From: Natronomonas sp. CBA1123 | GTDB lineage: Archaea > Halobacteriota > Halobacteria > Halobacteriales > Haloarculaceae | NCBI RefSeq assembly: GCF_009741925.1 | Contig: NZ_WPCC01000001.1 | Span: 124,001 to 188,000 of the forward strand | Length of the DNA stretch: 64,000 nt | Direction of reading: 5' to 3' | Shown here: piece by piece, positions 34,298 through 50,042 of the stretch | Layout of the letters: each line of letters begins with the position of its first letter | Position numbering within the stretch: position 1 is the first letter of the stretch | Translations under genes and position numbers: made by a program | Notes under the pieces: model-generated | What the model saw: only the letters and a program-made list of their open reading frames with translations | What the model was told of the DNA's origin: nothing | Databases searched by the model: none

Positions 34298-34298
34298 G

Positions 34299-34330
34299 AC
34301 ATCCTCCCACGGCTATATCCGTGGGATTTC
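34299..34330. mobile_element. IS200/IS605-like end hairpin
   Basis: GACATCCTCCCACGG, six-base loop, CCGTGGG (arms 34306-34312 and 34319-34325). This is the style of hairpin at IS200/IS605 ends in haloarchaea. It sits exactly at the joint between the duplicated TumE tail and the truncated SWIM gene. Confidence 0.5.
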
Positions 34331-34449: not shown

Positions 34450-34478
34450 GGATTCAAGGGAGCAGGGCTGGATTCCCC

Positions 34479-34506
34479 TGCGCCCGCCCGTCGGGCGCAC
34501 GACAAA
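34479..34506 (-). promoter_or_regulatory. GC hairpin start-proximal element (copy 2)
   Basis: TGCGCCCG and CGGGCGCA arms with the same five-base loop as copy 1, in front of the truncated SWIM gene. Confidence 0.6.
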
Positions 34507-34539
34507 ACGGAACCGGTACATCGGGCGCTAAATAATGAT

Positions 34540-34590
34540 ACTATAGAGTATCATACTTCGGAGTATCATACTTCGGAGTACGATTTCCAA
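34540..34590. repeat. GAGTATCATACTTC tandem repeats
   Basis: ATAGAGTATCATACTTCG is followed at once by GAGTATCATACTTCG and GAGTACGATTTCC. The related words GAGTATGATTTC and GAGTACCATTTTCC occur at 49741-49870, upstream of the intact ATPase. Probably a shared regulatory region. Confidence 0.6.
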
Positions 34591-34923
34591 AAGTACTATT
34601 CCGAGTACACGATCACGAACACGGGACAATGGTGGTATGGCGAACACGAGATCGACGCCGTCGGCCTGACCACCGGCGAGACACTGATCGTCGGTGAATG
34701 CAAATTCCAACAGTCACCCCTCGGATACGATGCGTTATCGAATCTAGAGGATCACACCGACGAACTTCAATGGTCTCCACAAAGCGGGAGTGACCGGGTC
34801 GTCGAGTACGCCCTCTTCTCCCGAAGGGGGTTCAAACAATCGGTCACGGAAGCAGCCAGTCAACGAGACGACCTACGTTTGTTCAGCCTCACAGATGTCG
34901 TGACTGCACTCACAGAAACTTAG
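34591..34923 (+). pseudogene. C-terminal remnant of a DUF234 archaeal ATPase
   Basis: About 105 codons in frame: NTGQWWYGEHEIDAVGLTTG, TLIVGECKFQQSPLGYDAL, YALFSRRGFKQSV and DDLRLFSLTDVV. They align with the last 110 residues of the intact ATPase at 50043 (GQWWFKEHELDVLGLTTEGL and so on). The AAA domain is missing, and the DUF234 nuclease-like part alone remains. The frame extends upstream through unrelated sequence, so no start is assigned. Confidence 0.75.
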
Positions 34924-34947
34924 GCCTAGGCCAGGCTTTGAGCCGAC

Positions 34948-35880
34948 TCAATTCGCCGTACGTTCGATTTCTCGATACCGTTCCCGAACCGTCACTTTAG
35001 ACACGTCCGCCGCATCCGCGATTTCGGCTTGCGTCAGGTTCTCTCCGGTGTCCTGACCAGCGACGTACAAGGCGCCTGCTGCAGCGCCCGCGGGATTACA
35101 GCCGTTCCTCAGGACTTCGCCCAATGCATCTTCGAGAAGCCTCCGCGCTTGACACTCCGTCTCATTGCTCACATCGGTTTCCGATGCAATCTGTGGGAGA
35201 TACTGCTTCGGGCCAGCCGGTGGCACGGGTAACTCGAGCTCCCGATTCAACACGGTGTACCCCAACCGGACCTTCCCGTCATCGAGTTTCGACACTCGAG
35301 CGATCTCCTCGAACGTCCGCGGATACTCGTTGAGTCGGCAGACCGCATACACGCTCCCGGAGGCAATCGTTTCGATCGACCGACCTCGAAGCACATCTTC
35401 GTTCTGTGCCGTTCGGAACAGCTGACACGCCTGGTTTCGAAGACTCTCCGAGAAACCGAGGGCAGACGTCATCCGCCGAATCTCGACCAGCCCCGACAGG
35501 AGATTCCGATTCGCTTTCGAGCCGATTTTCGCTCGTGTATGCTCGCGACGCAACCGACCGAGTTGCCGCCGTTTCTTCCCGCCGATCGTTCGCCCCTCGG
35601 AATCTTTCTTCCACCCGATTTCACTCCCGATACCGTGGTCGTGCCGGGCGACCGTGTTCGGCGCCCCTGTCCGTCGTCGTTCCGAGGCGTTTTCGTCGGC
35701 CTTGCAGTACTGCGGGCCGTGGTCCAGTGCTTCGTCGTTGAGAATGAGTCCACAGTCGTCACAAACCGTCTCGTGAGCGTTCGTCGTGACACGCCCATCA
35801 CATTCCGGGCAACTGTTCTGTTCGTCTTCCTGTACGTCCTCATCGAACGTCTGCTCGTAGATGTTTCTCGAAGCCATCAC
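34948..35880 (-). CDS. tfb: Transcription initiation factor IIB (TFB), second copy
   Basis: 310 residues. Zinc ribbon CPECDGRVTTNAHETVCDDC at about 23-42. The linker with GIGSEIGWKKDSEGRTIGGK matches the B-reader region of TFBs (D-x-GLGTEIG in canonical ones). Two cyclin folds follow, ending in TQAEIADAADVSKVTVRERY, the canonical HTH of the second repeat. This copy is closer to standard haloarchaeal TFB than the one at 26994. The start could be 35880 or the next codon, also ATG. Confidence 0.9.
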   Translation of the reverse strand: MMASRNIYEQTFDEDVQEDEQNSCPECDGRVTTNAHETVCDDCGLILNDEALDHGPQYCKADENASERRRTGAPNTVARHDHGIGSEIGWKKDSEGRTIGGKKRRQLGRLRREHTRAKIGSKANRNLLSGLVEIRRMTSALGFSESLRNQACQLFRTAQNEDVLRGRSIETIASGSVYAVCRLNEYPRTFEEIARVSKLDDGKVRLGYTVLNRELELPVPPAGPKQYLPQIASETDVSNETECQARRLLEDALGEVLRNGCNPAGAAAGALYVAGQDTGENLTQAEIADAADVSKVTVRERYREIERTAN

Positions 35881-35901
35881 AGATCACGAGGCACGCGTTC
35901 C

Positions 35902-35934
35902 TGCGCCCCTCGCCCGTCAGGGGCCAATAAAACA
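35902..35934 (-). promoter_or_regulatory. Start-proximal element with TATA box (copy 3)
   Basis: On the minus strand TTTATTGGCCCCTGACGGGC is followed by GAGGGGCGC. A TATA-like TTTATT precedes an inverted repeat AGGGGC/GCCCCT, about 22 bp before the TFB start. Identical over 27 bp to the element at 37994. Confidence 0.7.
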
Positions 35935-36052
35935 CAACGGCGGTGCTGCTACGGACGTCTCGGTGCGGAGAACTGTCGCTTGCCTCGCTCTATTCGAGAC
36001 TCTGTGGAGAGACTGAACACAGAGGTTCCAGTCTCAGTTTCGCTGCCACTGA

Positions 36053-36487
36053 TCAACTCGGGTCGTAGGGATTCGTCGCTGTATCGAGTCGATAGATATC
36101 ATCGACGGCATCGAAGTCGTCGTCAAACGCATACAGATACCCGAGTCCCTCGGTTTGCATATACGCAATAATACAGGCGTCAACGAACGAGAGGGGTTCG
36201 TGCTGCCTGAACAGGGATTTCCCTGTCGCGAAGGCAGCAGTACTGAGTGACTCGATATGGAACCGTGCGTTTTCCTCGATTCGATCAAGGAGATCGACAG
36301 CAGCCTCGTGACCGGCATGGGTTGTGAGGCCATTCAGCGTTTCCGCGAGGACGTACTCAAGAACGACTGCCTCTGGAAGCGATCCAGTGTCGACACCACG
36401 AATGACCGGCAGTGCGGTATCATGGGAACTATCGCGTCGATACGCTGCCGCAAAGAGGACTGTCGTATCGATGAGTGCGCGCGGCAT
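36053..36487 (-). CDS. vapC: VapC-type PIN domain toxin
   Basis: 144 residues. MPRALIDTTVLFAAAYRRDS has the first Asp, VVLEYVLAETLNGL the conserved Glu, EPLSFVDACIIAYMQ the third acidic residue, and LYAFDDDFDAV the fourth. Complete PIN active site, so a probable RNase. The AbrB-type antitoxin gene ends directly before its ATG on the same strand. Confidence 0.85.
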   Translation of the reverse strand: MPRALIDTTVLFAAAYRRDSSHDTALPVIRGVDTGSLPEAVVLEYVLAETLNGLTTHAGHEAAVDLLDRIEENARFHIESLSTAAFATGKSLFRQHEPLSFVDACIIAYMQTEGLGYLYAFDDDFDAVDDIYRLDTATNPYDPS

Positions 36488-36739
36488 CTATTCGGTTTCG
36501 ACGCCCCAAGCGTCATGCTCGTCCACTACATCGGTTGTCGCTTCGCCATCGTAGCCATCGAACTCGGCGAACGTTCCCGCCCGTTGTTGGACGACTTCGA
36601 CACGGACACTACCATCGGCCTCGAGATGCCAACGAAGTTGGTCACCATCATCAATATCGAGTTCACGTCGAATCCGTGCAGGGATGTTCGCCTGATTCCC
36701 TGATACCTTACTTTCGGCGTCGATTCGGTCGCTGCTCAT
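36488..36739 (-). CDS. AbrB/SpoVT-type antitoxin
   Basis: 83 residues from the ATG at 36739 (MSSDRIDAESKVSGNQANIP). SKVSGNQANIPARIRRELDI, GDQLRWHLEADGSVRVEVV is the swapped-hairpin AbrB DNA-binding fold. Acidic tail to bind the toxin. The neighbour downstream is the PIN toxin with no gap. A perfect palindrome lies 33 bp upstream, a probable autoregulatory operator. Confidence 0.8.
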   Translation of the reverse strand: MSSDRIDAESKVSGNQANIPARIRRELDIDDGDQLRWHLEADGSVRVEVVQQRAGTFAEFDGYDGEATTDVVDEHDAWGVETE

Positions 36740-36771
36740 ATCCACCAGTACGTCCTCGGCCGTCAAAAATC

Positions 36772-36789
36772 TAGTGTGACATCACACTA
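36772..36789. promoter_or_regulatory. Palindromic operator of the AbrB-VapC module
   Basis: TAGTGTGA, CA, TCACACTA is a perfect 8-bp inverted repeat with a 2-bp centre, followed by TATATGG. Its place between TATA-like sequence and the antitoxin start suits repression by the AbrB protein. Confidence 0.55.
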
Positions 36790-36807
36790 TATGGAAATTT
36801 AACCGGC

Positions 36808-37968
36808 TCAGTCAGCTGCCTCAGCGAAGCGCTCTCGGAGTTCAGCTTCCCGCTCTTCGAACGTTTCGGCTTTCTCACGGACGCCCTCACTCAACTGCTC
36901 GATTTGGGCGAGTGCAACTTGGCTCTCCAAGCCGGTCTGTCCGTCGCCATCTGTTTCCGCTTGGGACTGCTGTTCGTACTCGCGTTCGACGCGTTCAAGG
37001 GTCCCATCGGGGTTGAACAGGATGTCGTTGGCTGTCCGGACGTAGCTGTCGAGTGAATTACCCTCTTTGCCGCGGAAGAAGTGCGTCAGCGCGTACGTTG
37101 CACCCGAATGCAGTGTCCACATGTCGATTTCGAACGGATCAGCGGCGTTCGCTCGGGCATCACTCGCCGCCTGTTGGGCGAGATACTCCGGAAAGCCAAG
37201 CAGTTCGTAGAAGCCCTCGAGGTCGAACGGTACATCGGGGAATGAGACGGTGAGGTCCTGAGCGTCAGTGATGAATCCCAACAGGTCGTCTGCGACGAGT
37301 TCGAGTTGTTCGAGGACGGATTCCCACCACGGGCCGAAGCCATCCACATTGCCCACGTGCTTGACGACTTCTCTGTCGGTTAGTGAACGAATCGAGTTCG
37401 CACAGTAGCTATCTCGGGCAAATCCTTCGACGTAGACCGCGTTGTTTCCGAAGAAATCGTAGCCGGAAGTGACGCCCATTGTAATCGGCTCGTTTCGCCC
37501 AGGAAGCGTCACTGAGAGGCCATCGAACATGATGTCCATGTGGACCTCACCGCCGCCGCGGTACTGTCTGATCTCGCCGAAAACGAGTTCCGAGAGTGGA
37601 GTATCCTCGTAGGTTTCTGCACGCAGGACGTCTTCGAGTGCACCGTACACGTCAGTGGGATTGATGATGGCGTAACTATCCGTCGGAATATTGAACAACG
37701 GCGTTTCGGCATCAGCGTCTTCGTTCGCTTGGTCGATGAGTCGATTCGGTTCGACGACCGCGTTGAAGCGGTCCGTCTCAACCCATTCGCCCGTGTAGGG
37801 GTTTTCGTAGCCGACCTTGGTCTCGGTCGCCCGTGGAAGCTCTCGGATCGCTTCGGCAAAGGTCATCACGTCGTCGGTGTCTTGTCGTGCCTCGTACCAC
37901 TCCGGAAGGTCGGTATCTGTTCTCGGGTCGACGCCAGCGAACACGGTGGATGTCTCTGGAGATTTCAT
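36808..37968 (-). CDS. Plasmid-type hypothetical protein (DUF932-like)
   Basis: 386 residues, acidic. AVVEPNRLIDQANEDADAET, YAIINPTDVYGALEDVLRAE, GVTSGYDFFGNNAVYVEGFA and YCANSIRSLTDREVVKHVGN are reminiscent of DUF932 proteins carried by plasmids and phages. C-terminal coiled-coil-like segment (EKAETFEEREAELRERFAEA). The function is not known. It carries the same start-proximal element as the TFB gene at 34948, which suggests common control. Confidence 0.6.
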   Translation of the reverse strand: MKSPETSTVFAGVDPRTDTDLPEWYEARQDTDDVMTFAEAIRELPRATETKVGYENPYTGEWVETDRFNAVVEPNRLIDQANEDADAETPLFNIPTDSYAIINPTDVYGALEDVLRAETYEDTPLSELVFGEIRQYRGGGEVHMDIMFDGLSVTLPGRNEPITMGVTSGYDFFGNNAVYVEGFARDSYCANSIRSLTDREVVKHVGNVDGFGPWWESVLEQLELVADDLLGFITDAQDLTVSFPDVPFDLEGFYELLGFPEYLAQQAASDARANAADPFEIDMWTLHSGATYALTHFFRGKEGNSLDSYVRTANDILFNPDGTLERVEREYEQQSQAETDGDGQTGLESQVALAQIEQLSEGVREKAETFEEREAELRERFAEAAD

Positions 37969-37992
37969 TCGATCTCACGAGGGACTGCTTCG

Positions 37993-38022
37993 AGCGCCCC
38001 TCGCCCGTCAGGGGCCAATAAA
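37993..38022 (-). promoter_or_regulatory. Start-proximal element with TATA box (copy 4)
   Basis: Minus strand TTTATTGGCCCCTGACGGGC then GAGGGGCGC, the same 27 bp as copy 3, about 26 bp before the ATG at 37968. Confidence 0.7.
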
Positions 38023-38199
38023 CCTCAACAGTCCCGTGGAAGTGCTCACTTAGTGAGCGGCTTCACCAGTGTGCTGAATTGAGGGTGCGTCTCTCACACG
38101 GAGATTGGTTTGGGTTTGCTAGAAGGAATCGGTCGATACAGGTATTACAGACAACGGTCAGTACAGTCTCTGTCTTCAGCATGCCACTCGACGAGTGCG

Positions 38200-38625
38200 T
38201 CAGTCGTAGTAACTCAGGCGCTCAACAACGTCCGAGAAGGCAACGTTCTCACGTACATCAGTAATCTCGATGGCGACACGTTCGCCCTGTTCAGTATCGG
38301 GAACGATGACGACGAACCCACGCTCGACACGGGTGATACCGTCGCCTTGATCGCCAATACCATCAATCTCCACGCGTCGGGTTTCGCCTTCCTCCACGGG
38401 TGGTTTCTCGGGATCGGTCTGACTGCCTTGTCGAATCTCTGTATCTGCGATCTCGCTCTCGTCCGCTTCGTTCGATGGTGACGGAAAAACCGCCACGCGG
38501 TACGTCTCACCCTGCTGAAGGTTGTCAAGTCGAATCTCTTGTTCTGGTACTTCAATCAAATATGAGTCAGCTCGCTTTTCGACAGTGGCAGAGAACAGAC
38601 AGCGAAGGTGATCGGAAATTTCCAT
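38200..38625 (-). CDS. TRAM domain protein
   Basis: 141 residues from the ATG at 38625 (MEISDHLRCLFSATVEKRAD). The C-terminal TRAM barrel is EGETRRVEIDGIGDQGDGIT, RVERGFVVIVPDTEQGERVA, IEITDVRENVAFSDVV. The N-terminal half is a second short beta segment found in haloarchaeal TRAM proteins. TRAM proteins bind RNA and can act as RNA chaperones. The gene sits alone on the minus strand. Confidence 0.85.
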   Translation of the reverse strand: MEISDHLRCLFSATVEKRADSYLIEVPEQEIRLDNLQQGETYRVAVFPSPSNEADESEIADTEIRQGSQTDPEKPPVEEGETRRVEIDGIGDQGDGITRVERGFVVIVPDTEQGERVAIEITDVRENVAFSDVVERLSYYD

Positions 38626-39288
38626 CAGTGGTCTCTTCAACGAGATACCGAGACAGAACACTTCATTCTACTGTCTGACGTATTACAGCGCTAAACCAGC
38701 CTCACTAGCCGGACAGTCGATCCAGGCTTCACCTGGTTCCACGTTCAATTCAGGAAACTCACGAATCGATCGATCCGTTGAACTACCTGGTCGTTGTCAC
38801 GAACGGCGTGCGAGATACAGCGGGTACACTGATTGAGTTTCGCTGGTCCACCCACTCGACGAACAGTGGATCGAACGTCAGCAGCACGCCAATCCGAACG
38901 ACTCGGCGTTCATCGTCCCCGTTGCCCTCGAGGACGAACCCCTTCCAGCTTCGGCGGCGACGGCGCTCGCGACGCGGCCGATCTCGTTGACGAGTGGCAC
39001 GGGAGCGACGAATCGGTCAGGCTCGTCGATGCTCCGTGCAGTCAGCAGGACACAGATAGCTGACCCAGTTGACACACCAACCGGGACGGTCGCAGCCGAG
39101 TATTTCCGCCCTGCCCCTCGGGCCATTTTTGTTCGCCATTATCGGCGAACACGAAGCTTGTTCGCCCCAATAGCCGAACACATCTCCGATCACAACAATC
39201 ATCGGTATCCAGAGTATGATATTCTACGATTCACCAAACGCTTTTGAATATGTACATACAACGTACTTACAATAAGGGACGTTGTGCT
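38626..39288. other. Gap without a supported gene
   Basis: Several frames are open here, but none shows a family motif. The plus frame around 38845-39060 (VHPLDEQWIERQQHANPNDS) looks like protein debris. An inverted repeat, ACAACGT (39258-39264) and ACGTTGT (39279-39285), lies just before the CopG gene and may be its operator. Confidence 0.4.
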
Positions 39289-39591
39289 ATGGGCAATACG
39301 AGAGTAAACTTCCGGCTTCCGGACGATCTGGTGGAGAAAGCGGATGTCGCAGCGGCGGTCAACAGGAAAAATCGGACTGAGATCGTCAAGGAGGCGCTTC
39401 GAGACTACCTTGAAGAAATCGAGGACGACGAGACATTCAAGGAAGCAGTCGTTGAGCTCTACCTTGACGGCCAAATCGGATTCGACGTTCTAGCGGAATT
39501 TATCGGGCGTCAAGACGCTGAATCCGTTCGAGCATCGAAGGCCCTGCTTGACCAAGGCGAGGACGTGGCCGAGGATATGGCCAATCTCTAG
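39289..39591 (+). CDS. CopG/ribbon-helix-helix antitoxin
   Basis: 100 residues from the ATG at 39289 (MGNTRVNFRLPDDLVEKADV). The ribbon-helix-helix VNFRLPDDLVEKADVAAAVN, RKNRTEIVKEALRDYL is clear. The C-terminal half is helical, with FDVLAEFIGRQDAESVRASK as in antitoxins of PIN-like partners. The toxin-like gene follows after 17 bp. An inverted repeat overlaps the promoter region. Confidence 0.8.
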   Translation: MGNTRVNFRLPDDLVEKADVAAAVNRKNRTEIVKEALRDYLEEIEDDETFKEAVVELYLDGQIGFDVLAEFIGRQDAESVRASKALLDQGEDVAEDMANL

Positions 39592-39608
39592 AGGGACCTC
39601 GATATCGA

Positions 39609-40094
39609 ATGATTGTCGCTGACACAAGCGCTCTCATCTCTCTCGCTTCGATCGGTATTCTCGACATCTGTCTCACCGAATTCGAGACGCACACTACGGA
39701 CACAGTGCGACAGGAGCTCGAGGAAACAAGTGAATACGAAGATAGCCACGCCAACGCCGCTGACACCGTACTCGAGAGCATCGATCGGAAAGCGATTCAC
39801 CAAGTCAACAGTGAATTCACATCATCCCGCGTGGACAAGGGTGAAGGGAGTTGTGCAGTACTCACGAACGAACTGAAGGCGGAATTCCTGATTACCGATG
39901 ACCTTCGGGCACTCCCAGAGCTCCAGACGCTTACCGACGCTCAAGTCGCGATTTCACCGATCGTGTTGAAAGCTCTCGTCAAGAGAGGCGAACTAGAACA
40001 TGACGGGGCGGTGTCAAAACTGGAACAACTTGCCGATGCGCGTGACTGGCTCGGTGCACCCATCTATCGGCGCGCGAAGAATCTCTTCGAGTAG
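39609..40094 (+). CDS. PIN-like toxin
   Basis: 161 residues. MIVADTSALISLASIGILDI has the first Asp. DKGEGSCAVLTNEL has the central acidic residue. AEFLITDDLRALPEL carries the C-terminal acidic pair. Related to the DUF3368-type PIN branch. Preceded by the RHH antitoxin gene. It ends 24 bp before cassette repeat copy B. Confidence 0.8.
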   Translation: MIVADTSALISLASIGILDICLTEFETHTTDTVRQELEETSEYEDSHANAADTVLESIDRKAIHQVNSEFTSSRVDKGEGSCAVLTNELKAEFLITDDLRALPELQTLTDAQVAISPIVLKALVKRGELEHDGAVSKLEQLADARDWLGAPIYRRAKNLFE

Positions 40095-40117
40095 CGCATA
40101 CCGGAGCTCTATCGCAA

Positions 40118-40260
40118 CTGGTCGTGGCTGCGCGCGCAGCGAGACGCGACTACAGGGAGAGTCTCGGGCAGTGCGATCGGTGAGCGAAGCGAGCCGTGAG
40201 CACGAGCGAGCACGGAGCGGTGGGTGGGGAGGCGGTTGGCGGGTGGAGGCCACAATAAAA
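40118..40260. repeat. Cassette repeat, 3' flank (copy B)
   Basis: Shares GGCTGCGCGC, GAGACGCGAC, CTCGGGCAGTGCGA, GGTGAGCGAAGCGAGCCG and GCGAGCACGGAGCGG with 26827-26985. It follows the RPA-like gene on the minus strand just as copy A follows the TFB gene. Confidence 0.75.
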
Positions 40261-40282
40261 AAGAAAAGAGCTGCCTACGCGC

Positions 40283-41098
40283 TCACCACCAAGCCGCTCG
40301 TTCGGGGAAGTGAACCATCGACCGTCCGGTGAGCGCGAGTGACGCCCGGCCTTGGTACCAGCTTACCGCCGCATCCCGGATACGCACCGTCTGACCTTCC
40401 GCGATGAGAGGTTGCTTCGATCGCTTCCACACCGTCAACTTGGTTTTCCCTGTCTCGTCTTCGAGCAAGCCGACTTGTTGCATCGAGGGACTGCTGGGTT
40501 CCCACAGCGTCTCGACTGTCGCTTCGACATCCACCCACTTGCGACCCACCTGCACCAACTCACCGAGCGCCACGATCGCCCCCGGCGCCGCCTGTACGTC
40601 CTCGACCATGTCCAACACAGCGTCCTGCATCGATCGCCCGCTCTGGACCCGGGCGGCCAACTCTCGTTCGATGGCTTCGACACCGAGACCACCGCAACAC
40701 TTTCCGTCCAACCGGATGGCCTGTTTCTCGACCTCCCGCCGCGTCTCGACGTCCAACTGCTCACGTGGATCTGCTTCACTGGACAGCCCACAGTGTTTCG
40801 CCTGCGTCATCTCCCGGCACAGCTCCTCCCGCCGACTCGTCTGCGCGCAATCTTCACGTTCACGAGTCCGCCGTTTCTCAGCTTCTCGCGCTTCCCACTT
40901 CTCCTGAGCTTCCAGCGTCATTCCGTGTGGGTGGTCCTGTTCGTCAGCCGCCGCGATTGCATCACGAACGTCCGAGTCAATTTTCGCTTGGGTCTGCAAC
41001 TCCACCGTTGGTCGCAGCTCCGGGGTGTCCTCGACTACGTCTTGTTCTGATTCCTGTTCGACCGAGACCTTTTCACGAATTGGGTTGTTACGTTGCAT
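40283..41098 (-). CDS. RPA-like OB-fold single-stranded DNA-binding protein
   Basis: 271 residues. The first 170 are charged and helical, with Cys/His residues (EELCREMTQAKHCGLSSEA). The C-terminal 100 form an OB fold: VQVGRKWVDVEATVETLWEP, MQQVGLLEDETGKTKLTVWK, RSKQPLIAEGQTVRIRDAAV, SWYQGRASLALTGRS. This is the archaeal RPA-type pattern. A plasmid-borne ssDNA-binding protein could help replication or transfer. Both flanks carry the same non-coding cassette as the TFB gene at 26994. Confidence 0.7.
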   Translation of the reverse strand: MQRNNPIREKVSVEQESEQDVVEDTPELRPTVELQTQAKIDSDVRDAIAAADEQDHPHGMTLEAQEKWEAREAEKRRTREREDCAQTSRREELCREMTQAKHCGLSSEADPREQLDVETRREVEKQAIRLDGKCCGGLGVEAIERELAARVQSGRSMQDAVLDMVEDVQAAPGAIVALGELVQVGRKWVDVEATVETLWEPSSPSMQQVGLLEDETGKTKLTVWKRSKQPLIAEGQTVRIRDAAVSWYQGRASLALTGRSMVHFPERAAWW

Positions 41099-41117
41099 TG
41101 GATCTCTCCGATCCGAA

Positions 41118-41505
41118 GGCGCTCACAGAGCGTCCGACGCCCGCGACCTCACTCGCGGGTTTTCCACACAATCGAACCGACCAGTCACGACTGCGCGCTC
41201 TCGCTCGCGCCTTCGCGAGCGCCCCTTGGGCGCGAGCGAGAGCGCGCCACAGACGGTGCACACAACCAGCCGCGCGCGCCGACCCGCCCGGAACGCGCGT
41301 CCAGCGGAGTAAGCGTGGGGGGGGGGGTGAGCAGCCACGCCGCGCAACCCCTCGCGCTTACCCGCTGGCGTCGAGACCATATGCACTTCAGCCCGGAACG
41401 GGCGCGGGCGGGGCGGAGAGCGCCCGCATGCCCGGAATGGTCGGTCGCGAGCGCGTGGAGGGCGGCAGCGCCGAGCGCGGCGAGCCGGCTACCACTCACG
41501 GGGTA
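41118..41505. repeat. GC-rich cassette repeat, 5' flank (copy B)
   Basis: Matches 28072-28520 in order, with a shorter middle. Contains a G10-like run near 41320 and the 19-bp-stem hairpin at 41193-41247. No protein is encoded. A weaker third relative (GGAATGGTGTG, GGCGGCAGCGCTGA, GCTACTCACCG) lies at about 44555-44615. Confidence 0.8.
41193..41247. repeat. Long hairpin inside cassette copy B
   Basis: GCGCGCTCTCGCTCGCGCC (41193-41211) and its exact complement (41229-41247), 17-nt loop. Same arms as in copy A. Confidence 0.85.
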
Positions 41506-41553
41506 ACCGTCGATTCCAGCCGGCCAGCTAACGAATGAAAACACGTCTGCTAA

Positions 41554-41584
41554 TTAACCAACATACTCGGGAGTCGTTGGTTAA
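41554..41584. promoter_or_regulatory. TTAACCAAC inverted repeat (copy 3)
   Basis: TTAACCAAC, 13-bp spacer, GTTGGTTAA, at the outer end of cassette copy B, about 100 bp upstream of the VapB-type gene. Confidence 0.8.
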
Positions 41585-41680
41585 GACGAAGGGTACCGAT
41601 TCCGTGCTTCTGCGGTCGAGCTTCGATGCCACCGTAGTGGTCGTGGAAACGTTTACACAGTTTCAGACGAAACTTTCAGT

Positions 41681-41956
41681 ATGGCAACGGCGGTCAAAGT
41701 TGACGAGGAGGCGAAATCCCGTCTCGAGGAGCTACAGGCAGAAATCAAGCTCCGGACTGGCGAGAAGGTCACGCAACAGGAGCTTCTGACCCGCCTGATT
41801 GACGATGCCTACGAGTCCCGAGAGGCGGTTATCGATTCGTTTCGTGAGTCGACGGTCCCGCTATCGGAGGCCGAAAAAGAGGCGATGCAAGCAGGTCGGA
41901 TCAGCTCCGGCGTCGAGACGGACGAAGACGACATCGACGACATCCTCTACGGATGA
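41681..41956 (+). CDS. vapB: VapB-type antitoxin
   Basis: 91 residues. MATAVKVDEEAKSRLEELQA, EIKLRTGEKVTQQELLTRLI is a short ribbon-helix-helix. The tail FRESTVPLSEAEKEAMQAGR, ISSGVETDEDDID is the toxin-binding region and is also found as a relic at 29828-29926. Stop and start overlap by ATGA with the toxin gene. Confidence 0.8.
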   Translation: MATAVKVDEEAKSRLEELQAEIKLRTGEKVTQQELLTRLIDDAYESREAVIDSFRESTVPLSEAEKEAMQAGRISSGVETDEDDIDDILYG

Positions 41957-42384
41957 CGGTGCTGATCGATACAGGCGTGGTATACGCCGACCACGACACG
42001 GACGCGACAAGGCACGAGGCTGCCAGCCGTGCACTCGACGCCGTATATGACGGGGAGTTCGGCCATCCCTACCTGACCGACTATATCTTCGACGAAGCCA
42101 TCACGCTCACCCGAAAACGAACAGGGTCGTACTGTGCAGCGAAGCAATTGAGCGACCGGCTTCTGGGAGAGGGGCAGTATCCGTCAGTTTACGAGATACT
42201 ACACGTCTCGAAGGCGGGGTTCGGTGACGCCGTCGACATTTTCGAGCGATACGACGACCAAGCGTTGAGCTTCACGGATGCGACGATCGTCGCCGTCGCC
42301 GAGCGGTTCGACATCGATCAGGTGTTGAGTTTCGATGCCCACTTCGATGGGGTCGTTCCGCGAGTCGACCCCGGAGATATATGA
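41953..42384 (+). CDS. vapC: VapC-type PIN toxin
   Basis: 143 residues. MTVLIDTGVVYADHDTDATR has the first Asp, YLTDYIFDEAITLTRKR the conserved Glu, LSFTDATIVAVAERFDI the third acidic residue, and VLSFDAHFDG the last. Complete PIN active site. Coupled 4-bp overlap with vapB. Confidence 0.85.
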   Translation: MTVLIDTGVVYADHDTDATRHEAASRALDAVYDGEFGHPYLTDYIFDEAITLTRKRTGSYCAAKQLSDRLLGEGQYPSVYEILHVSKAGFGDAVDIFERYDDQALSFTDATIVAVAERFDIDQVLSFDAHFDGVVPRVDPGDI

Positions 42385-42414
42385 CTACCATCCTCCTGTT
42401 CTCTCCGTAGCTCG

Positions 42415-42540
42415 ACCGTGGCTGTGCGGGCAACGACAGTGAGACGCGACCGAAGGGAGCGTCTCGAAAGCGAACGGCGAGCGGTTCGTGGTCGACCGAC
42501 GGGAGACCACGACAGCGAGCGGGGAACGCAGTGACCCGCG
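42415..42540. repeat. Cassette-type 3' flank, diverged copy
   Basis: GTGGCTGTGCGGGCAACGAC, GAGACGCGACCGAAGGGAGC and GTCTCGAAAGCGAACGGCGAG resemble the start of copies A and B, then diverge into an unrelated repeat-rich stretch. No gene with a matching 5' flank is adjacent. Confidence 0.5.
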
Positions 42541-42545
42541 AGCGC

Positions 42546-42716
42546 TCACTCGTTTTCGAGTGCAGCGTAAATCTCCGCATGACGGCGTCCATCAAGCTCG
42601 CCCATCTCAAGGGCGATTTCGCGGCGTTCGGCGTCGCTTTCGGCTGCCTGATACCGCTCATACAACTGGCGGACCTCATCATCGACAGCCGTTGAGGAAT
42701 CAGTACTGGACGCCAT
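42546..42716 (-). CDS. Small acidic protein paired with a Doc-type toxin, candidate antitoxin
   Basis: 56 residues (MASSTDSSTAVDDEVRQLYE, RYQAAESDAERREIALEMGE, LDGRRHAEIYAALENE). Acidic, helical, likely dimerising. It starts 33 bp after the stop of the Doc-type gene on the same strand. Codon choice and composition match its neighbours. No DNA-binding motif is visible. The antitoxin role is inferred from location. Confidence 0.55.
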   Translation of the reverse strand: MASSTDSSTAVDDEVRQLYERYQAAESDAERREIALEMGELDGRRHAEIYAALENE

Positions 42717-42749
42717 TGCTTTACTGAATATTCTCGGTGGGCCCGTTTA

Positions 42750-43148
42750 TCAGTTGCGGCGAGCGCACGAGCGAAAGTAGATGACTGCAGTGTCTGTATC
42801 GACCGCTGCTTCGTCGGTTGCGAAGCGGTGCAAGAGGGTCCGAACTTCGTCACCGTAGTCGAATGTGTAGCCGTTCAATATGTAGAAAACGACCACAGTT
42901 CGGAGCGCTGTTCGTTTGTTTCCGTCGACGAATGGATGCTCCGCAACGAGCAGTCGCATCAGATGGACCGCTTTGTGGTGAATCGTCTCAGGCACCTCCC
43001 CGAAGAACCCCTCCGAAATGTACTGAAGTACGGATGCAATCGCGTCCTCTGACCGGACTCCTGGCTCTGTGTCGTCGCCTTCTGTCACGATTTGCTCGTG
43101 AAGGTCGAGGATGAGTCCGACAGAGGGGTACGCGATATCGTCAGGCAC
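42750..43148 (-). CDS. doc: Death-on-curing (Doc/Fic) family toxin
   Basis: 132 residues. The Fic motif is HPFVDGNKRTAL at about 71-82, close to the Doc consensus HxFxxANKRTA. SVGLILDLHEQIV and EPGVRSEDAIASVLQ are usual N-terminal parts, and FYILNGYTFDYGDEV follows the motif. Doc proteins phosphorylate EF-Tu in bacteria. The archaeal target is not known. The small acidic gene follows it, so antitoxin order would be reversed from Phd-Doc. Confidence 0.8.
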   Translation of the reverse strand: MPDDIAYPSVGLILDLHEQIVTEGDDTEPGVRSEDAIASVLQYISEGFFGEVPETIHHKAVHLMRLLVAEHPFVDGNKRTALRTVVVFYILNGYTFDYGDEVRTLLHRFATDEAAVDTDTAVIYFRSCARRN

Positions 43149-43194
43149 GCGCTTGGTCTTTTCAAGCCCTACTTAATTATTGGTTTCGTCCCGT

Positions 43195-43464
43195 TCAGTC
43201 CCGCCGCCACTGGTACCCACAGTCGGTACAGATGTACAGCTCCGTCGGTGCTTCGTCACTCGACCGGAGTTGCTTGATATCCCAGTACGCCTCATCGTGG
43301 TTACAGTCGGGACACGGTACATCGGTCGTCGGCAAGCCGCGTTCGGTGTCGTCACCACGGATGGTGAGTGTCCGTTCCTGCTGCGTGTTGGTCGTCACGA
43401 AGGCACTTGTCTCCGATTTCGAAAAGGAATTCCCACAGTTTCGACAGTGCCAGGTCATGTCCAT
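43195..43464 (-). CDS. TFS/TFIIS-like zinc-ribbon protein
   Basis: 89 residues. N-terminal zinc knuckle HCRNCGNSFSKSET. The C-terminal ribbon CPDCNHDEAYWDIKQLRSSD, EAPTELYICTDCGYQWR closely matches TFS/TFIIS, including the acidic DE pair at the tip (SSDEAP) that activates RNA polymerase cleavage. It is probably an accessory transcript cleavage factor or a regulator that mimics one. GC hairpin copy 5 lies about 120 bp upstream. Confidence 0.75.
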   Translation of the reverse strand: MDMTWHCRNCGNSFSKSETSAFVTTNTQQERTLTIRGDDTERGLPTTDVPCPDCNHDEAYWDIKQLRSSDEAPTELYICTDCGYQWRRD

Positions 43465-43584
43465 CGGCTACCGGAGTGACCCACAGAAGTCACACAGCGG
43501 GCCACTAAGACAACTAGTTGACGCCGATTCGACTGCTCTGGAATGTTCGACTCAGGACATCGGTTGCAACCGCGGGCATGACGA

Positions 43585-43612
43585 TGCGCCCGCGGCCGTC
43601 AGGGCGCATAAG
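43585..43612 (-). promoter_or_regulatory. GC hairpin start-proximal element (copy 5)
   Basis: TGCGCCC (43585-43591) and GGGCGCA (43602-43608) around CGGCCGTCA, then TAAGAA. Same design as copies 1-4. It lies between two minus-strand genes, about 120 bp before the TFS-like start. Confidence 0.5.
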
Positions 43613-43656
43613 AAGCTAAGACGAAGGTAATGGCTGTTCTCGACTGGAGTCCGTTC

Positions 43657-43998
43657 TCAGGGCGACACGTAGTCTATCACCTGGTTCGTCACGTCCTCGA
43701 TACGTTCGTCGACGAGAGCGGTCAGACGGTGCTCGACGTCTGCCGCATTGTTGAGAGTTATAAGCGACCAGGGGAGGACGTGACTTCGTTCCCCGAGTGG
43801 TTGGCCTTCGTAGTCGTCGTCTCTGAGTCTGAATGACTCCTCGTGATAGGTCTTCGTAGAAATGAGGGCCGTGATGATCTGGGTTCCGTGATTCGGGAGT
43901 TGCGGGGCCCCGAGCACGAGCATCGGGCGACCTTTCTCCGAGAGAGGATCACTCGCCCACACGATGTCACCGCGTGCTAAATCTTTGAACGCAGTCAC
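43657..43998 (-). CDS. PemK/MazF-like toxin
   Basis: 113 residues. DLARGDIVWASDPLSEKGRP, MLVLGAPQLPNHGTQIITAL and ISTKTY match the PemK/MazF SH3-like barrel, with the usual R-P of KGRP and the T/S of ALISTK. SHVLPWSLITLNNAADVEHR closes the fold. mRNA interferase activity is likely. Its start overlaps the HTH gene by 4 bp. Confidence 0.75.
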   Translation of the reverse strand: MTAFKDLARGDIVWASDPLSEKGRPMLVLGAPQLPNHGTQIITALISTKTYHEESFRLRDDDYEGQPLGERSHVLPWSLITLNNAADVEHRLTALVDERIEDVTNQVIDYVSP

Positions 43999-44348
43999 TG
44001 AACGTCCTCCATCTCGTCGGTCTGGAGGTCCTCAAGCCGCTCCTCGCCGTACTCCTCGTCCGCCGTCTCGTGGTGTCGGTGGAGCTGGTAGGCAGCTTGG
44101 AGTCGCTCCTCGTCGTCCGTGATCGCCCAGTATGGGCGCTTGTGCCGGACGAGCCCTCGTTCTTTCAGCCGCGACAGGATCGCGCTGACAGCGTCGGTCT
44201 CCAGTTCAAGTCGCTCCGCGATGGTTGCCGCCTTCCACGCCCGGTCGTCGTGCTCGTCGAGGAACAGCACGATTCGCTCGGTGTCGTTCCGCACTTCAAA
44301 CTCGTCAGCGTCCTCGAACTCCTCGATATCGATGGTGTCACTGGACAT
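43995..44348 (-). CDS. MarR-like winged-helix protein, candidate antitoxin of PemK
   Basis: 117 residues. ERIVLFLDEHDDRAWKAATI, AERLELETDAVSAILSRLKE, RGLVRHKRPYWAITDD is a clear winged helix. The acidic tail (EEYGEERLEDLQTDEMEDVQ) could bind the toxin. It is upstream of and overlapping pemK in one operon. Probably autoregulatory. Confidence 0.75.
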   Translation of the reverse strand: MSSDTIDIEEFEDADEFEVRNDTERIVLFLDEHDDRAWKAATIAERLELETDAVSAILSRLKERGLVRHKRPYWAITDDEERLQAAYQLHRHHETADEEYGEERLEDLQTDEMEDVQ

Positions 44349-44958
44349 ACGTTACTGTTGGGGCTGTGGGAACATAGCCATTTGGTTCGTTTGCTGTTTG
44401 GTTAGAGTGGTTCTGTGCCCAACGATGCGGGATAGAGTTACTCCGCCGACGTTGTGACGAGATGTAACTCGAGGTCCCCTGTCCAGTACGTCGTGAGCCC
44501 ACCCGGGCTACAGCGGGCGCACAGCTGTAGTGGGCTTCCAGGTGGCCGAGTTCGACACGGAATGGTGTGAGGCGGCAGCGCTGATCGCGGTGAACCGAAT
44601 GCTACTCACCGCGCAACAGTTTCCCCGCCCCATGGGCTGAACAAACGAAAAGACTTGACGAACCTCGGGATTGATTAACCAACATCAGGGAGCGTTTTTA
44701 GTTAAGAAAGAAGGGATCGGCTCCGGCGTATCATGCGGGAGATCACAGACGACCTCAACGCTGCCCCGATTGAGCACGACACCGTGAATCGCCTGTGCTA
44801 GCTCCCTCTCGACCGACATATCAGTTCATCACGCCGCCATATTTATAATCTATTTGAAATAGACAAATTTAATCGCAATTCGTAGTGCACTATATGGCGA
44901 AGGGATACAGAACGCGGCCAGTTACGAAACCCCGAGCCACTCCACCATAGCGATCATC
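44349..44958. other. Regulatory gap before the large ATPase
   Basis: No gene supported. Holds the weak third cassette relative (about 44555-44615), a TTAACCAAC repeat, and a TAGTGCACTA palindrome at 44883-44892 followed by TATATGG, about 70 bp before the ATPase start. Confidence 0.5.
44675..44705. promoter_or_regulatory. TTAACCAAC inverted repeat (copy 4, right arm degenerate)
   Basis: TTAACCAAC, 13-bp spacer, TTTAGTTAA. Same spacing as copies 1 and 3 with a decayed right arm, directly after the weak cassette relative. Confidence 0.6.
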
Positions 44959-47900
44959 ATGTTAGGAACGCCTCCGCTGACTCAGTCTCGAACCTATCTG
45001 GAGATTCGACCCGCAGACGAACCGCTCAAAGCAGACACCGTCACCCGCTCGATCACCGACCTCCATCGGTCGGTCGGCGACAGCGGGTTGCTCGGCGGCA
45101 CCGAGTACCCGACCTACGAGATGCTGATCGCCGCCACCGGCACCACCGGCGACACCGGCCAGCGCTCGCTGGCGTGGTACGTTGGCGTCGACACGCCCGA
45201 ACACCTCGATGCGACGCGTCGGGCGCTCACCGCCTGCCTTCCACACTCCTACGACATCGTCAAAACCGACTGTACCTACGCCGACCTGCTCAACCTCCCT
45301 GAGGTCGGAGACGATACAAGCACCGACGCCGACACACTGGCCACAGACGGCACGCTGACCGCAGAAGGTTCGATAGCCGACTCCAACCATAGAACAACCG
45401 ACGACCCAGCTGAAACGGCACCACTCGCGGACTGGGACGTCGCGGCCGTCGACTACCACGGTGTGGGTGACCGGCCGCGAGACTGGCAGTGTCCCATGAA
45501 ACCGATCGAGGAGTTCGTCGGCGCCGACGAGAGCACCGCCGACTGGCCGCTGTCGAGGGTTTTCAACGCGCTCGCCACCGGCGACGCGCCGGCGCTCGTT
45601 CAGTTCATCATCCAGCCGAAACCCGACTGGACGGCCGACCGCGACGACCGCATCTTCGAGCTCGAGAACGGCACTGATCTGTATCGCTACCTGATCGGTA
45701 AGTGGATCGCCGACTTCTTCACTGGCACCCATGACCGCGAGCGATCCAGCCACAACGAGACGACACCCCGCCGTGACCGGTACGACACGCATGCCTCCGG
45801 CACCCGCCATGACAGCGGCTACGGCTCCAGCCCAACCCAGTCGTCGCCGGATCTCCAGCCATCGGAGACTCGACGCATCGAGGCGCTCAACGCCGTGGAC
45901 ACCCGGCAGTCGTTCACGGTCAACGCTCGGGCCGTCGCGCTCGACACCGACCCTGATCCAGCGGATGCGACCTGCCGCCCGCTCGTCGATGCGTTCCAGC
46001 CGCTGACCGGCGCTCACTACTGCATCGAAGGCCGCCGCTACAGCTACGGCTCGAAAGCCGCCAACGACGTCTTCGAGGCACTACTGGACCGAACACTGCA
46101 GACGAATCCGGAGCGTCGCCGCCACATCGTCCCCGGCATACCGAATCGCAGCCCCGCGATCGTCGTCGGACCGGCCGCTCTCGGTGGCCTCTGTCTCACG
46201 GGCGGCCCTGCACTCGAGAGCGACGCCCGCCGCGCCCTCGAAACGACCCCTCGGGAACGAACCGGCTTAGAGCTGCCGCCACGAGCCGTCCTCAACCGCT
46301 ATCTCGAAGCCGAGGGCATGCACATCGGTCATCCCTGTACGGCCGACCGCGAGCCGCTGAATGCCACTGTGTCGTTGCCGCCCACCGTCCAACAGCTCCA
46401 CACCGCGATTACCGGGCAATCGGGGACCGGCAAATCCGCACTCGGCCACGGGATGCTCGCGGGGAACTTCGAGGCCACCGACGGCGCCAACATCTACATC
46501 GATTCCAAAGGTGACGGCGGCCCTGATGCCTATCTCCGAGCGCATTACGCCCGCCATGGGGACCTCGATGACGTGTACTACTTCGACTGCGCAGAACTCC
46601 TGCCCGGTCTCCCACTACTGTCCATCAAGCCCCAGCTCGACGCCGACATCGACCGCGTCCAGGCCGTCGAGAACGTCGCTGACCGCCACCTCGAAATCCT
46701 CGCCGGCTACATGGGCCAAGAGACGTTCCACAGTGCGCCGATGGCCGTCGACGTCGTCGAGGCGCTCATCAAGGCGCTGTTCGACCCGGTGCACGGCTCC
46801 GACACCATCTCCCAGACCGCGCTCTTGCAGGCGGCCGCCCGCATGCACCGCAGCGGGGAGGCGCCACCCGTCTCCGACCCGCATCTCCGGGAAACGCTCG
46901 ACGACGTCACCGCCAACAGCGACCGTGTCTTCGACAACATCATGGGGGCTGCCGGCCGCCGCATCCGGCAGGCCTCCAAGGACGCCCGCCTCGCACCACT
47001 GTTCACCCATACCGATGGCACTGACGCCGCGTTCGATCTCCGTGATCACCTGGACGAACAGTGTGTCATCATCTTCGACACCAGCGGCTATCGCGACGAC
47101 CCACGAAGCCTCCTGACACTCGCCATCATCTCGGAGCTGTGGACGGCACTCACACGCCGCGCCGAGGACGCCGATCCCCACGACGACCTCCCGCAAGTGA
47201 ACCTCTTCCTCGAGGAGGCGGCCGACATCGCGGCCTCCGAACTCCTCACCGACCTGCTCTCACAGGGGCGGGCGTTCGGCGTCGGTGTCACCGTCATGCT
47301 CCAGTTCCCGGAACAACTCCGCGACGATTACCCCCGCGTGTATCGCGAACTCATCAACGACATCGGTACCCACATCACCGGGCCCGTCAACGACGCCACC
47401 GGCCTCGCTCGGGCCTTCGCCACCGACGCCCACCCGGTCGACGACATCGCCACCCGAATCAGCAACCTCGAACGCGGCGACTGGCTCGTCAACCCCGCCG
47501 CGCCCTTCGCTGACACGCCACCCACGCCGTTCTACTGTCAGTCCCGCTCGCTCCCACCCGGCCATCCCGATGGTGAGGACCCACTCGACGAAACCACCAA
47601 TACATCGTACGACGCCCAACGCACACTGCTTGAGACCCGTATGTACCGTAAGTACGGCCTCGCGATCGCCGAACACACCATCACTACCAGTGAAAGCGAG
47701 GCAATCGAATCGACTCCCACTGACGGCGAATCCACACCCGACACCACGCCGCTCCACACCACTATTCCACACACCAACCGCCTTCCCGACTGTCTCACAT
47801 ACGTCGACGACCCACCCTATCCACTCGTTTGCACGGCCTGTGAACGGCGGTACGCGCCCTCGACAGAGGGCCTCCGCAACGCCATCCAGTGCTGTCACGA

Positions 47901-48714
47901 ACTCGCGGCTATCGACCGCGCCGACATCCCGATTACGACCCTCGACGTTCCGCTGACGGCCAGTGACCGGCGCCGAAGCCCCCTAAGCGACGCCCAACTC
48001 CGCTTTCTCGCCGCCATCTACATGGCCCACCAGCAGCGCTTCGACCCCGACATCGAATTCGACATCGTCCGTGACAGCATGGTTCGCCTCCAAGAGTACG
48101 TCGGCATCGATTCCGACGCCGTCCGCGACCTCATCGATGACGGCCTCCTCAAACGCGACTGTACCCATCCCCACTACCTCTACACCGTCACGCCCGACGG
48201 CCGCGACGCACTCGAAATCGAACACCGCGAAGGCATCGCCCACGGCGACGGCAAAGGCGACCTCAGCGAATCCAGCCTCCACGTCGCCCTCGTCGAAGCC
48301 GGCTACCGCTTCCTCACACAGGCGTACGTCGACACCCCCGACTCACCCGCCGTCGAGGCCACCCGCTATCTCGACGTCGAGGGCGGCCGCCTCGACGCCG
48401 CCGCACTCGACGCCGACGACAACGTCGTCGTCACCCTCGAAGCCGAACTCTCCAACAACGACACCCGCCGCGCCGTCCCCAGCGACTTCGATACGATGGC
48501 CGCTTGTGACCCGAACGCCAGTATCTGGGTCGTCAAGAACCGCGACGGCGCCCACGAAGTGCTGCAGGCACTCAACGACCCCGCCGAGGGCGACCCACGC
48601 GTCCAGAAAACCTACAGCGAAAACATGCGCCCACAGGACTTCACCATCGACACCGCCGGCCTCACCGACGTCTACACCTTCCAGACCATCCGGAACCAAC
48701 TCACGACCGAGTAG
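44959..48714 (+). CDS. Large HerA/VirB4-like ATPase with C-terminal wHTH and nuclease-like domain
   Basis: 1251 residues. The N-terminal 450 contain VirB4/TraC-like strands. The ATPase core has Walker A GQSGTGKS (486-493), NIYIDSKGDGGPDAYLRAHY, and Walker B VNLFLEEAADI (about 747-757), then GVGVTVMLQFPEQLRDD. A Cys cluster (CTACERRYAPS and QCCHE, about 958-981) may bind zinc. Residues 1014-1090 form a winged helix (LSDAQLRFLAAIYM). The end, EGGRLDAAALDADDNVVVTL followed by EAEL (D1146, E1161, E1163), fits a PD-(D/E)XK-type core. Probably the motor for DNA transfer or packaging of the island. Confidence 0.75.
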   Translation: MLGTPPLTQSRTYLEIRPADEPLKADTVTRSITDLHRSVGDSGLLGGTEYPTYEMLIAATGTTGDTGQRSLAWYVGVDTPEHLDATRRALTACLPHSYDIVKTDCTYADLLNLPEVGDDTSTDADTLATDGTLTAEGSIADSNHRTTDDPAETAPLADWDVAAVDYHGVGDRPRDWQCPMKPIEEFVGADESTADWPLSRVFNALATGDAPALVQFIIQPKPDWTADRDDRIFELENGTDLYRYLIGKWIADFFTGTHDRERSSHNETTPRRDRYDTHASGTRHDSGYGSSPTQSSPDLQPSETRRIEALNAVDTRQSFTVNARAVALDTDPDPADATCRPLVDAFQPLTGAHYCIEGRRYSYGSKAANDVFEALLDRTLQTNPERRRHIVPGIPNRSPAIVVGPAALGGLCLTGGPALESDARRALETTPRERTGLELPPRAVLNRYLEAEGMHIGHPCTADREPLNATVSLPPTVQQLHTAITGQSGTGKSALGHGMLAGNFEATDGANIYIDSKGDGGPDAYLRAHYARHGDLDDVYYFDCAELLPGLPLLSIKPQLDADIDRVQAVENVADRHLEILAGYMGQETFHSAPMAVDVVEALIKALFDPVHGSDTISQTALLQAAARMHRSGEAPPVSDPHLRETLDDVTANSDRVFDNIMGAAGRRIRQASKDARLAPLFTHTDGTDAAFDLRDHLDEQCVIIFDTSGYRDDPRSLLTLAIISELWTALTRRAEDADPHDDLPQVNLFLEEAADIAASELLTDLLSQGRAFGVGVTVMLQFPEQLRDDYPRVYRELINDIGTHITGPVNDATGLARAFATDAHPVDDIATRISNLERGDWLVNPAAPFADTPPTPFYCQSRSLPPGHPDGEDPLDETTNTSYDAQRTLLETRMYRKYGLAIAEHTITTSESEAIESTPTDGESTPDTTPLHTTIPHTNRLPDCLTYVDDPPYPLVCTACERRYAPSTEGLRNAIQCCHELAAIDRADIPITTLDVPLTASDRRRSPLSDAQLRFLAAIYMAHQQRFDPDIEFDIVRDSMVRLQEYVGIDSDAVRDLIDDGLLKRDCTHPHYLYTVTPDGRDALEIEHREGIAHGDGKGDLSESSLHVALVEAGYRFLTQAYVDTPDSPAVEATRYLDVEGGRLDAAALDADDNVVVTLEAELSNNDTRRAVPSDFDTMAACDPNASIWVVKNRDGAHEVLQALNDPAEGDPRVQKTYSENMRPQDFTIDTAGLTDVYTFQTIRNQLTTE

Positions 48715-48717
48715 CTA

Positions 48718-50042
48718 CCGCCGACGACTCCTGTCAACGCCGAGGGCAACTCTAGACGCGTACCCTGTCAGTCTCTCACGCCAGCCCGACCGATGGCCAG
48801 CTATGACGCTCGCCGGCGTCCCCAGACAGCGACCTTCCCAGCCCACATCAGTACGGTCGATGACCCGCTCTGGCAAACCGCGTATGCCCAGGTCAACAGC
48901 TACCCGATAGGGTTGTTAGCGCGCCACCTGCGCTCACCAAAATACTACAGTGCCGAATCTCCCGGAAGAATACGTGAACCGGGGATTCTGTACACCAACC
49001 AAGCGGGACCCACGAGTGGACGAATAGCGGACAGCAGATGGGATTCTAAATCAATCGATAGAGCGCGTCTCAACACAGGTTTGCAGGACGGTTGAAGAAA
49101 CCATCATTAGAACTATAACAAGAACGATATCCATAAAACCCACAGCAAGCGATACGGTGTAGCTAGCTATATGGCGGTATAGATTCCAGAATTATCAAAA
49201 TAAAGTTGTATCCTCCATCACACCGAACGTAGCTCAGACGCCCGATATCGAGCGTATGAGTTCGGTTCCGCCTCGATTCGAGTACACAAGCCTGCTCGCA
49301 CCAACACCGCGTCGATACCCAGCAAACCACCAGCAAGCGGCCGCCTGTACCGTTCCAGGACACCTCGAATCAGAGCAACCCAACCCCCGGGACCTCACTC
49401 CCGAACCCCCGAACGTCACAGCACAGTCCGACATACCCACGTTCACCACCATGCGACACATTCCATCTCCATACGCACCTTCACCATCCATAATGCTAAT
49501 TTTGGCCCCGAACTACAGCCTGTAACCACCTGTATTATTGCGGTTAAGCGACTCTCTGTAGAGACAACCAGCTGAAATTGTCCGAAATATCGTCGATATC
49601 GGGCTTTGTCATGGGGGAGTGGAGAATAGGTTAAGTCTCAACCGGTAGAATCAGCATCAGAAGGCTGCTAACCGCTGGTTTGTTCGCTGTAGTAGCGATT
49701 CGTGTGATGGAATTTCCGATTTCGCACACCTGGATTTCTACGAGTATGATTTCTACACAGGGCGAATCAGCCACTGACCGGAATGTATCGAGTGGAGCAT
49801 CCAGATTGTGGAAGATTATACCCTAGATAATCATACTTTTGAGTATGCAATTTCAGAGTACCATTTTCCTAGCGGGACGACACCCAATTTGCCAACTACT
49901 CGAAGCGTCCACTGGACTCTGAGACCGTTTCCGACGGGAATGCGCTTGGCCGCAAACGGAAGCCTAGTAAAGAAATCGCAAATTCGGAAATCTAGATTTC
50001 CGAAATCAAAAGTTCTACACTGATGGACGTGGTACGGTAGCC
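48718..50042. other. Long gap, debris and regulatory sequence
   Basis: No confident gene. A plus frame from 48793 reads DPLWQTAYAQVNSYPIGLLA, protein-like debris that soon loses character. 49256-49525 is open but has no motif. AT-rich sequence occurs around 49100-49210 and 49540-49560. GAGTATGATTTC (49740) and TTTTGAGTATGCAATTTCAG (49837-49856) resemble the repeats at 34540. A long palindrome lies at the end. Confidence 0.5.
49983..50004. promoter_or_regulatory. 22-bp perfect palindrome before the DUF234 ATPase
   Basis: TTCGGAAATCT followed by its exact complement AGATTTCCGAA, centred about 49 bp upstream of the ATG at 50043. Half-site-like ATTTCCGAT occurs at about 49711. Candidate operator. 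Confidence 0.6.

Follow-up and report, generated by a model that had tools for sequence, protein, structure and literature searches.

Architecture of the gene

The stretch analysed here, from the genome of the halophilic archaeon Natronomonas sp. CBA1123 and referred to as the window, is 64,000 nucleotides long (NCBI RefSeq assembly GCF_009741925.1, contig NZ_WPCC01000001.1, positions 124,001 to 188,000). It contains a gene for a large coupling-type ATPase which carries a zinc-ribbon-like cysteine cluster, a winged helix and a PD-(D/E)XK-like nuclease domain in its C-terminal part. Positions count from the first nucleotide of the window, and the features are listed in Table 1. An earlier note on this DNA placed Walker A and Walker B motifs, a Cys cluster, a winged helix-turn-helix (HTH) and a D-x14-E-x-E stretch in one 1251-residue chain; all of these are located. 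The same gene is also present on contig 28 of genome G001 and on a contig of Natronomonas aquatica. The closest relatives of the full protein reach about 61-62% identity at most.

The structure model of the N-terminal region has two low-confidence inserts, at residues 120-154 and 256-295. No transmembrane helix is found in the 1251-aa protein, and hydropathy never exceeds 1.6 over 19 residues. The cysteines are spaced C958-x2-C961-x16-C978-C979. C958, C961 and C978 are kept in 44 of 47 full-length relatives, and four members have weak TRASH-like Pfam matches in this region. The winged-helix segment has weak HTH/PadR-type Pfam matches and MarR-fold Foldseek matches.

Table 1. Positions of the ATPase gene, its parts and associated features in the window
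Feature	Position	Strand	Size or residues	Basis or remark
Whole gene: coupling-type ATPase, zinc ribbon, winged helix and PD-(D/E)XK-like tail	44959..48714	+	1251 aa	
N-terminal region	44959..46338	+	1-460	Predicted alpha/beta domains; model, hydropathy, VirB4/TrwK fold match
Motor domain	46339..47598	+	about 461-880	PF10412, conserved motifs, fold matches
Walker A, GQSGTGKS	46414-46437	+	486-493	
Walker B, LFLEEA	47203-47220	+	about 749-754	
Zinc-ribbon-like Cys cluster region	47770..47950	+	938-997	C958, C961, C978, C979; conservation
Winged-helix domain	47959..48210	+	about 1001-1084	Tail model helices (model positions 64-147)
PD-(D/E)XK-like nuclease domain	48241..48711	+	1095-1251	Invariant E1104, H1108, D1146, E1161, E1163
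RPA-like OB-fold single-stranded DNA-binding protein, genetically linked to the ATPase family	40283..41098	-		
Segment missing from the sister-genome locus, candidate mobile island	34165..48860	.		Ends approximate

The PD-(D/E)XK-like tail

The residues expected to form the active site do not vary. All 62 aligned tails, whose identity to the window tail ranges from 24 to 70% (four tails have just 24-31%), share E1104, H1108, D1146, E1161, E1163, D1176, D1178 and W1190. The earlier note named D1146, E1161 and E1163 as the residues to check; they are kept even at 24% identity, and the lack of conservation that it named as counting against its proposal is thus not seen. In an alignment of the nuclease domain (158 positions, 32 sequences), 14 columns are invariant and include all three residues; the chance of three arbitrary positions all landing in such columns is p about 6e-4. 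The D...E-x-E pattern recurs in the distant stand-alone proteins L151-L154.

The AlphaFold model of the tail (residues 938-1251) has a predicted local distance difference test (pLDDT) score of 92 and a predicted TM-score of 0.90. The end of the model runs helix, strand, strand (D1146), strand (E1161 and E1163), helix, strand, helix. This is the alpha-beta-beta-beta-alpha-beta order of PD-(D/E)XK enzymes, with D1146 on beta2 and E-x-E on beta3. In a Foldseek search of the PDB, the best nuclease match of the tail is NucS (2vld; probability 0.96, E 0.023), followed by the weaker matches BspD6I small subunit, SfsA, YaeQ and BpuSI. Winged-helix proteins (RIO2 and MarR) are also among the matches. 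The tail resembles the PD-(D/E)XK nucleases NucS, BspD6I, SfsA and BpuSI in core fold and in the placement of D and E-x-E. It differs from them in having E-x-E instead of E-x-K, in its fusion to a coupling motor, and in lacking a sequence-level family match: the nuclease domain has no Pfam match and no convincing PDB sequence-profile match. BamHI also has an E-x-E pattern (D94, E111, E113). Two other identities were considered for the tail and dropped. NurA or another nuclease known to Pfam is not matched in any of the 62 members, and PF13814 is unmatched in the Pfam scan of the same members, so that a resemblance to Replic_Relax is not claimed.

Conservation of the tail residues and the PD-(D/E)XK fold are well supported, and the tail looks like a putative PD-(D/E)XK nuclease that is predicted to be active. 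The earlier proposal of a motor joined to such a nuclease is supported by the conservation, by the high-confidence model and by the matches to known PD-(D/E)XK folds. Alternatively, the tail may be catalytically inactive and just bind or position DNA. Inactive domains of the restriction endonuclease fold are known in defence proteins (PMC12839542), and the window protein has E-x-E rather than E-x-K. However, all 62 sequences keep the acidic triad, whose pattern is also found in the distant stand-alone proteins, and a silent tail is considered very improbable.

The stand-alone proteins are themselves of note. They consist of a winged helix and a nuclease in 270-321 aa (L151:10016-10828, L152:9436-10311, L153:9580-10533 and L154:9383-10348) and are distant kin of the window tail in which D...E-x-E is kept.

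The motor

By sequence, the motor is closest to the VirD4/TraD/TrwB coupling proteins. It matches TrwB_AAD_bind (PF10412) at 35.9 bits against a cut-off of 20.5. Matches to two other sequence families, SXT TraD and CD1115 VirD4, are both below cut-off, and the best PDB profile match is TrwB (E=0.007). Walker A residues G486, G489, G491 and K492 are invariant in the 47 full-length relatives, as is Walker B E753 (clade A, described below). The model of residues 1-937 has a pLDDT of 85. Its fold matches VirB4/TrwK, HerA and TrwB with E from 1e-9 to 1e-13, the match to VirB4/TrwK extending over about 965 columns (E 8e-14); the TM-score against TrwB is about 0.63-0.68 by target length. Further fold matches include DUF4297-HerA, SIR2-HerA, DndH and HerA-NurA. 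The window protein has no VirB4 match in Pfam or NCBIfam. The HerA/VirB4-like label given earlier agrees with the fold matches, and is refined by sequence to VirD4/TraD/TrwB as the closest group.

The protein shares the motor domain with TrwB/VirD4/TraD, and its sister clade adjoins VirB4. Unlike them it has extra N-terminal domains, a C-terminal zinc ribbon, winged helix and nuclease, no detected N-terminal transmembrane anchor and no linked relaxase. Such an anchor is typical of type IV coupling proteins but is not universal. VirB4/TrwK gives the longest fold match; however, relatives of the window protein sit beside a separate VirB4 gene, and window-type proteins are thus a second ATPase. 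As in HerA-NurA, including Thermus TdtA-NurA of ICEth1, a HerA-class motor is found with a nuclease. Here, in contrast, the nuclease is in the same chain and is PD-(D/E)XK-like rather than of the RNase-H/NurA fold.

Distribution of the family

Relatives are present in 69 of 116 genomes of the taxonomic family of the host, with up to 12 matches per genome. Among sampled genomes of the phylum, those with the nuclease tail all belong to the same order (28 of 295 genomes). A viral origin was considered and rejected, as there is no match in phages or IMG/VR. Two clades can be distinguished. Clade A, to which the window protein belongs, has proteins of about 1120-1340 aa with the nuclease tail; VirB4 is found within 10 kb in 4 of 59 loci. 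Clade B has proteins of 1274-1671 aa and forms one branch with a Shimodaira-Hasegawa-like approximate likelihood ratio test (SH-aLRT) support of 100. All 21 of its large loci have linked genes for VirB4 and the transmembrane protein m371, and most have the surface-anchored protein s581. The clade-B VirB4 matches NCBIfam CD1110 (E 1e-40), and locus L046 has an open reading frame (ORF) resembling TrbC/VirB2 pilins (E 0.018).

The nuclease tail also occurs in direct association with VirB4. Clade-B ATPases L129-L132 have the same tail (E 1e-22 to 1e-29), and their genes overlap VirB4 or are separated from it by 7-76 bp. On pNRC200 of Halobacterium salinarum NRC-1, a laboratory organism, consecutive genes for VirB4, the family ATPase and a primase overlap at their ends, and the nuclease tail of this ATPase is intact (E 8e-29). 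MOB-suite types pNRC200 as MPF_T, yet as 'non-mobilizable'; all 147 catalogued plasmids matching P0001 are likewise typed non-mobilizable.

An earlier report covers haloarchaeal integrated mobile elements that carry HerA, VirB4 and VirD4-type genes (PMC9259645). The ATPases of these elements and ORF25 of plasmid-vesicle plasmids (PMC10818511) are mobile-element ATPases of the same superfamily. The likeness seen is at the level of the superfamily, and the relevant portions of the two reports mention no nuclease domain. No description of a nuclease fusion to such ATPases was found in the open-licence literature.

Partner genes and relaxases

The RPA-like protein of the window belongs to a mobile gene type that accompanies the ATPase family. 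A homologue matches the NCBIfam replication factor A model with E 2e-15, below the cut-off of the model. Of the 40 best-matching copies in 20 genomes, 34 have a family ATPase no more than 25 kb away, a lower bound as the ATPase list is incomplete, with the E-value cut for 'best-matching' picked after the list was seen; about 3% would be expected, this being the genome share covered by 25-kb stretches around family ATPases. Of 59 clade-A loci, 21 have a primase gene of the NrS-1 type, in some cases convergent and 14-50 bp downstream, and 10 have ArdC-like genes nearby. Genes for single-stranded DNA binding, priming and anti-restriction are the usual companions of single-strand transfer on conjugative plasmids.

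The same partners can be read differently. The protein may be a replication, resection or segregation factor of an integrated element, a one-chain analogue of HerA-NurA which prepares ends or resolves copies and has no role in cell-to-cell transfer. The linked RPA-like and primase genes, the HerA-NurA fold matches and the lack of VirB4 at most clade-A loci are consistent with this. However, sister clade B is always found in VirB4 operons, and the closest profile matches are conjugative coupling proteins, not HerA. Such a role without transfer is considered unlikely.

Recognised relaxases are rare and are unlinked to the family ATPase. TrwC is found in none of the 116 genomes; PF03432 relaxases are found in 14, never beside family ATPase loci. 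A Mob_Pre search was uninformative as it matched no control genome, and these results cover the TrwC and PF03432 families. One MOB relaxase-like ORF, L134:1090-1845 (-), matches PF03432 above cut-off and has an HxDxxxPHxH stretch; relaxases thus probably exist in some haloarchaea. In some of these organisms, ribbon-helix-helix-like ORFs lie upstream of the MOB relaxase-like ORFs. Such ORFs conflict with the claim that relaxase homologues are lacking in archaea.

Two further window genes have counterparts, in whole or in part, near family ATPases. A family of 472-aa proteins with no P-loop and no Pfam match is represented at 30166-31584 (+) in the window, at L043:5910-7367 and at L036:12964-14364; in L043 the gene precedes that of the coupling ATPase by 112 bp, and in L036 the two are about 1.1 kb apart. 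The window gene at 52748-54622 (+) encodes eight pentapeptide-repeat stretches and an Ion_trans_2 pore domain in one chain, and ORFs with a similar N-terminus adjoin the ATPase in L039 (11001-13241) and L008 (1550-3607).

The candidate island of the window copy

In sister genome G002 the flanks of the locus are about 95-98% identical, and the candidate island with the ATPase gene is absent. Its right end is 146 bp beyond the ATPase stop codon. Clean island ends were sought and not found: neither direct repeats nor a tRNA flank the segment at 34165/48860. The G002 locus has an IS200/IS605-type element in place of this stretch, so that either a gain by the window or a loss by the sister would account for the difference. 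A diverged direct repeat of about 400 bp is found at 28072-28510 and 41113-41499, 13 kb apart, and within both copies 19 nt form a perfect inverted repeat (GCGCGCTCTCGCTCGCGCC). Inside the island, at 36053-44348, lies a dense group of toxin-antitoxin and toxin-like genes (PIN, Fic, PemK/MazF-like).

A defence role, or a role in conflict between elements, has to be weighed in this setting. A HerA/FtsK-type translocase with a nuclease effector might capture and degrade incoming DNA, as HerA-based anti-phage systems do. HerA-nuclease pairs are known defence complexes, and DUF4297-HerA, SIR2-HerA and DndH are among the fold matches of the motor. The protein matches the PADLOC mad8 model at 41 bits, but this model also matches true VirB4 at 33 bits, so the match is a superfamily cross-hit. 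Membership of the MADS defence system was accordingly rejected; a scan of ten neighbours gave no match to any other MADS model. Toxin-antitoxin genes abound in the island, but generic PIN and Fic toxins alone touch PADLOC models within it. STAND-like ATPase_2 genes are near 9 of 59 loci, but the one at 50043 is common to the sister genome without the island. Moreover, nuclease-tailed relatives lie inside VirB4 operons, and the RPA-like, primase and ArdC-like partners are of the transfer or replication type. Defence is judged improbable. Of the two options in the earlier note, transfer or defence, the neighbours of the family (VirB4, pilin-like, primase, RPA-like and ArdC-like genes) favour transfer.

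A proposed role in DNA transfer

The chances are about even that the protein combines a coupling motor with a nuclease by which DNA is processed for the transfer of relaxase-less elements. It would be an ATPase of the type IV secretion coupling class (VirD4/TrwB-like, HerA superfamily) that assembles into a ring, possibly a hexamer, and pumps DNA. In the family as a whole, the zinc and winged-helix part would most likely recognise element DNA, and the PD-(D/E)XK nuclease would cut or resect it. The motor may then feed the DNA into a VirB4-powered pore, and single-stranded DNA would be handled by the RPA-like and primase partners. In this scheme the coupling protein would do the cutting for which bacteria rely on relaxases.

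Several points weigh against this proposal. The Foldseek E-values of the tail are weak; none is below 0.001 and the best for a nuclease is 0.023, so support is at the level of fold and not of family. A PD-(D/E)XK enzyme hydrolyses DNA and would not remain covalently linked to it as a relaxase does. VirB4 is absent from 55 of 59 clade-A loci in the stretch read (11-24 kb). In most clade-B coupling proteins a C-terminal Pox_D5-like domain replaces the nuclease, which is therefore not universal in these machines; L046:6397-10749 and others have such a C-terminus, of the primase-helicase type. The surroundings of the window copy show neither an integrase nor att repeats, and the window genome has no intact VirB4, just a 46-residue remnant with stops. 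With no intact VirB4, integrase, tRNA or flanking repeat, the window copy is an orphan. It would be either the coupler of a mobilisable element, needing a helper pore in trans, or a stranded remnant.

There is precedent for a motor and nuclease acting in DNA donation. In Thermus, DNA donation by the small element ICEth1 is efficient only when both the HerA-like ATPase TdtA and the NurA nuclease are present (PMC5365140). According to published work, recognisable relaxases are missing from archaeal conjugative plasmids, and HerA-NurA has been proposed as the source of their single-stranded DNA (PMC9905601). It is conceivable, though doubtful, that in haloarchaeal conjugative and mobilisable elements a coupling motor with its own PD-(D/E)XK nuclease takes the place of a relaxase. 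If so, this would explain why archaeal conjugative elements are generally without recognisable relaxases, and why the plasmids described above are typed as non-mobilizable. Here, motor and putative nuclease form a single chain, and the large family built in this way may reveal how DNA is cut for transfer in archaea and may offer a marker for transfer-competent haloarchaeal elements.

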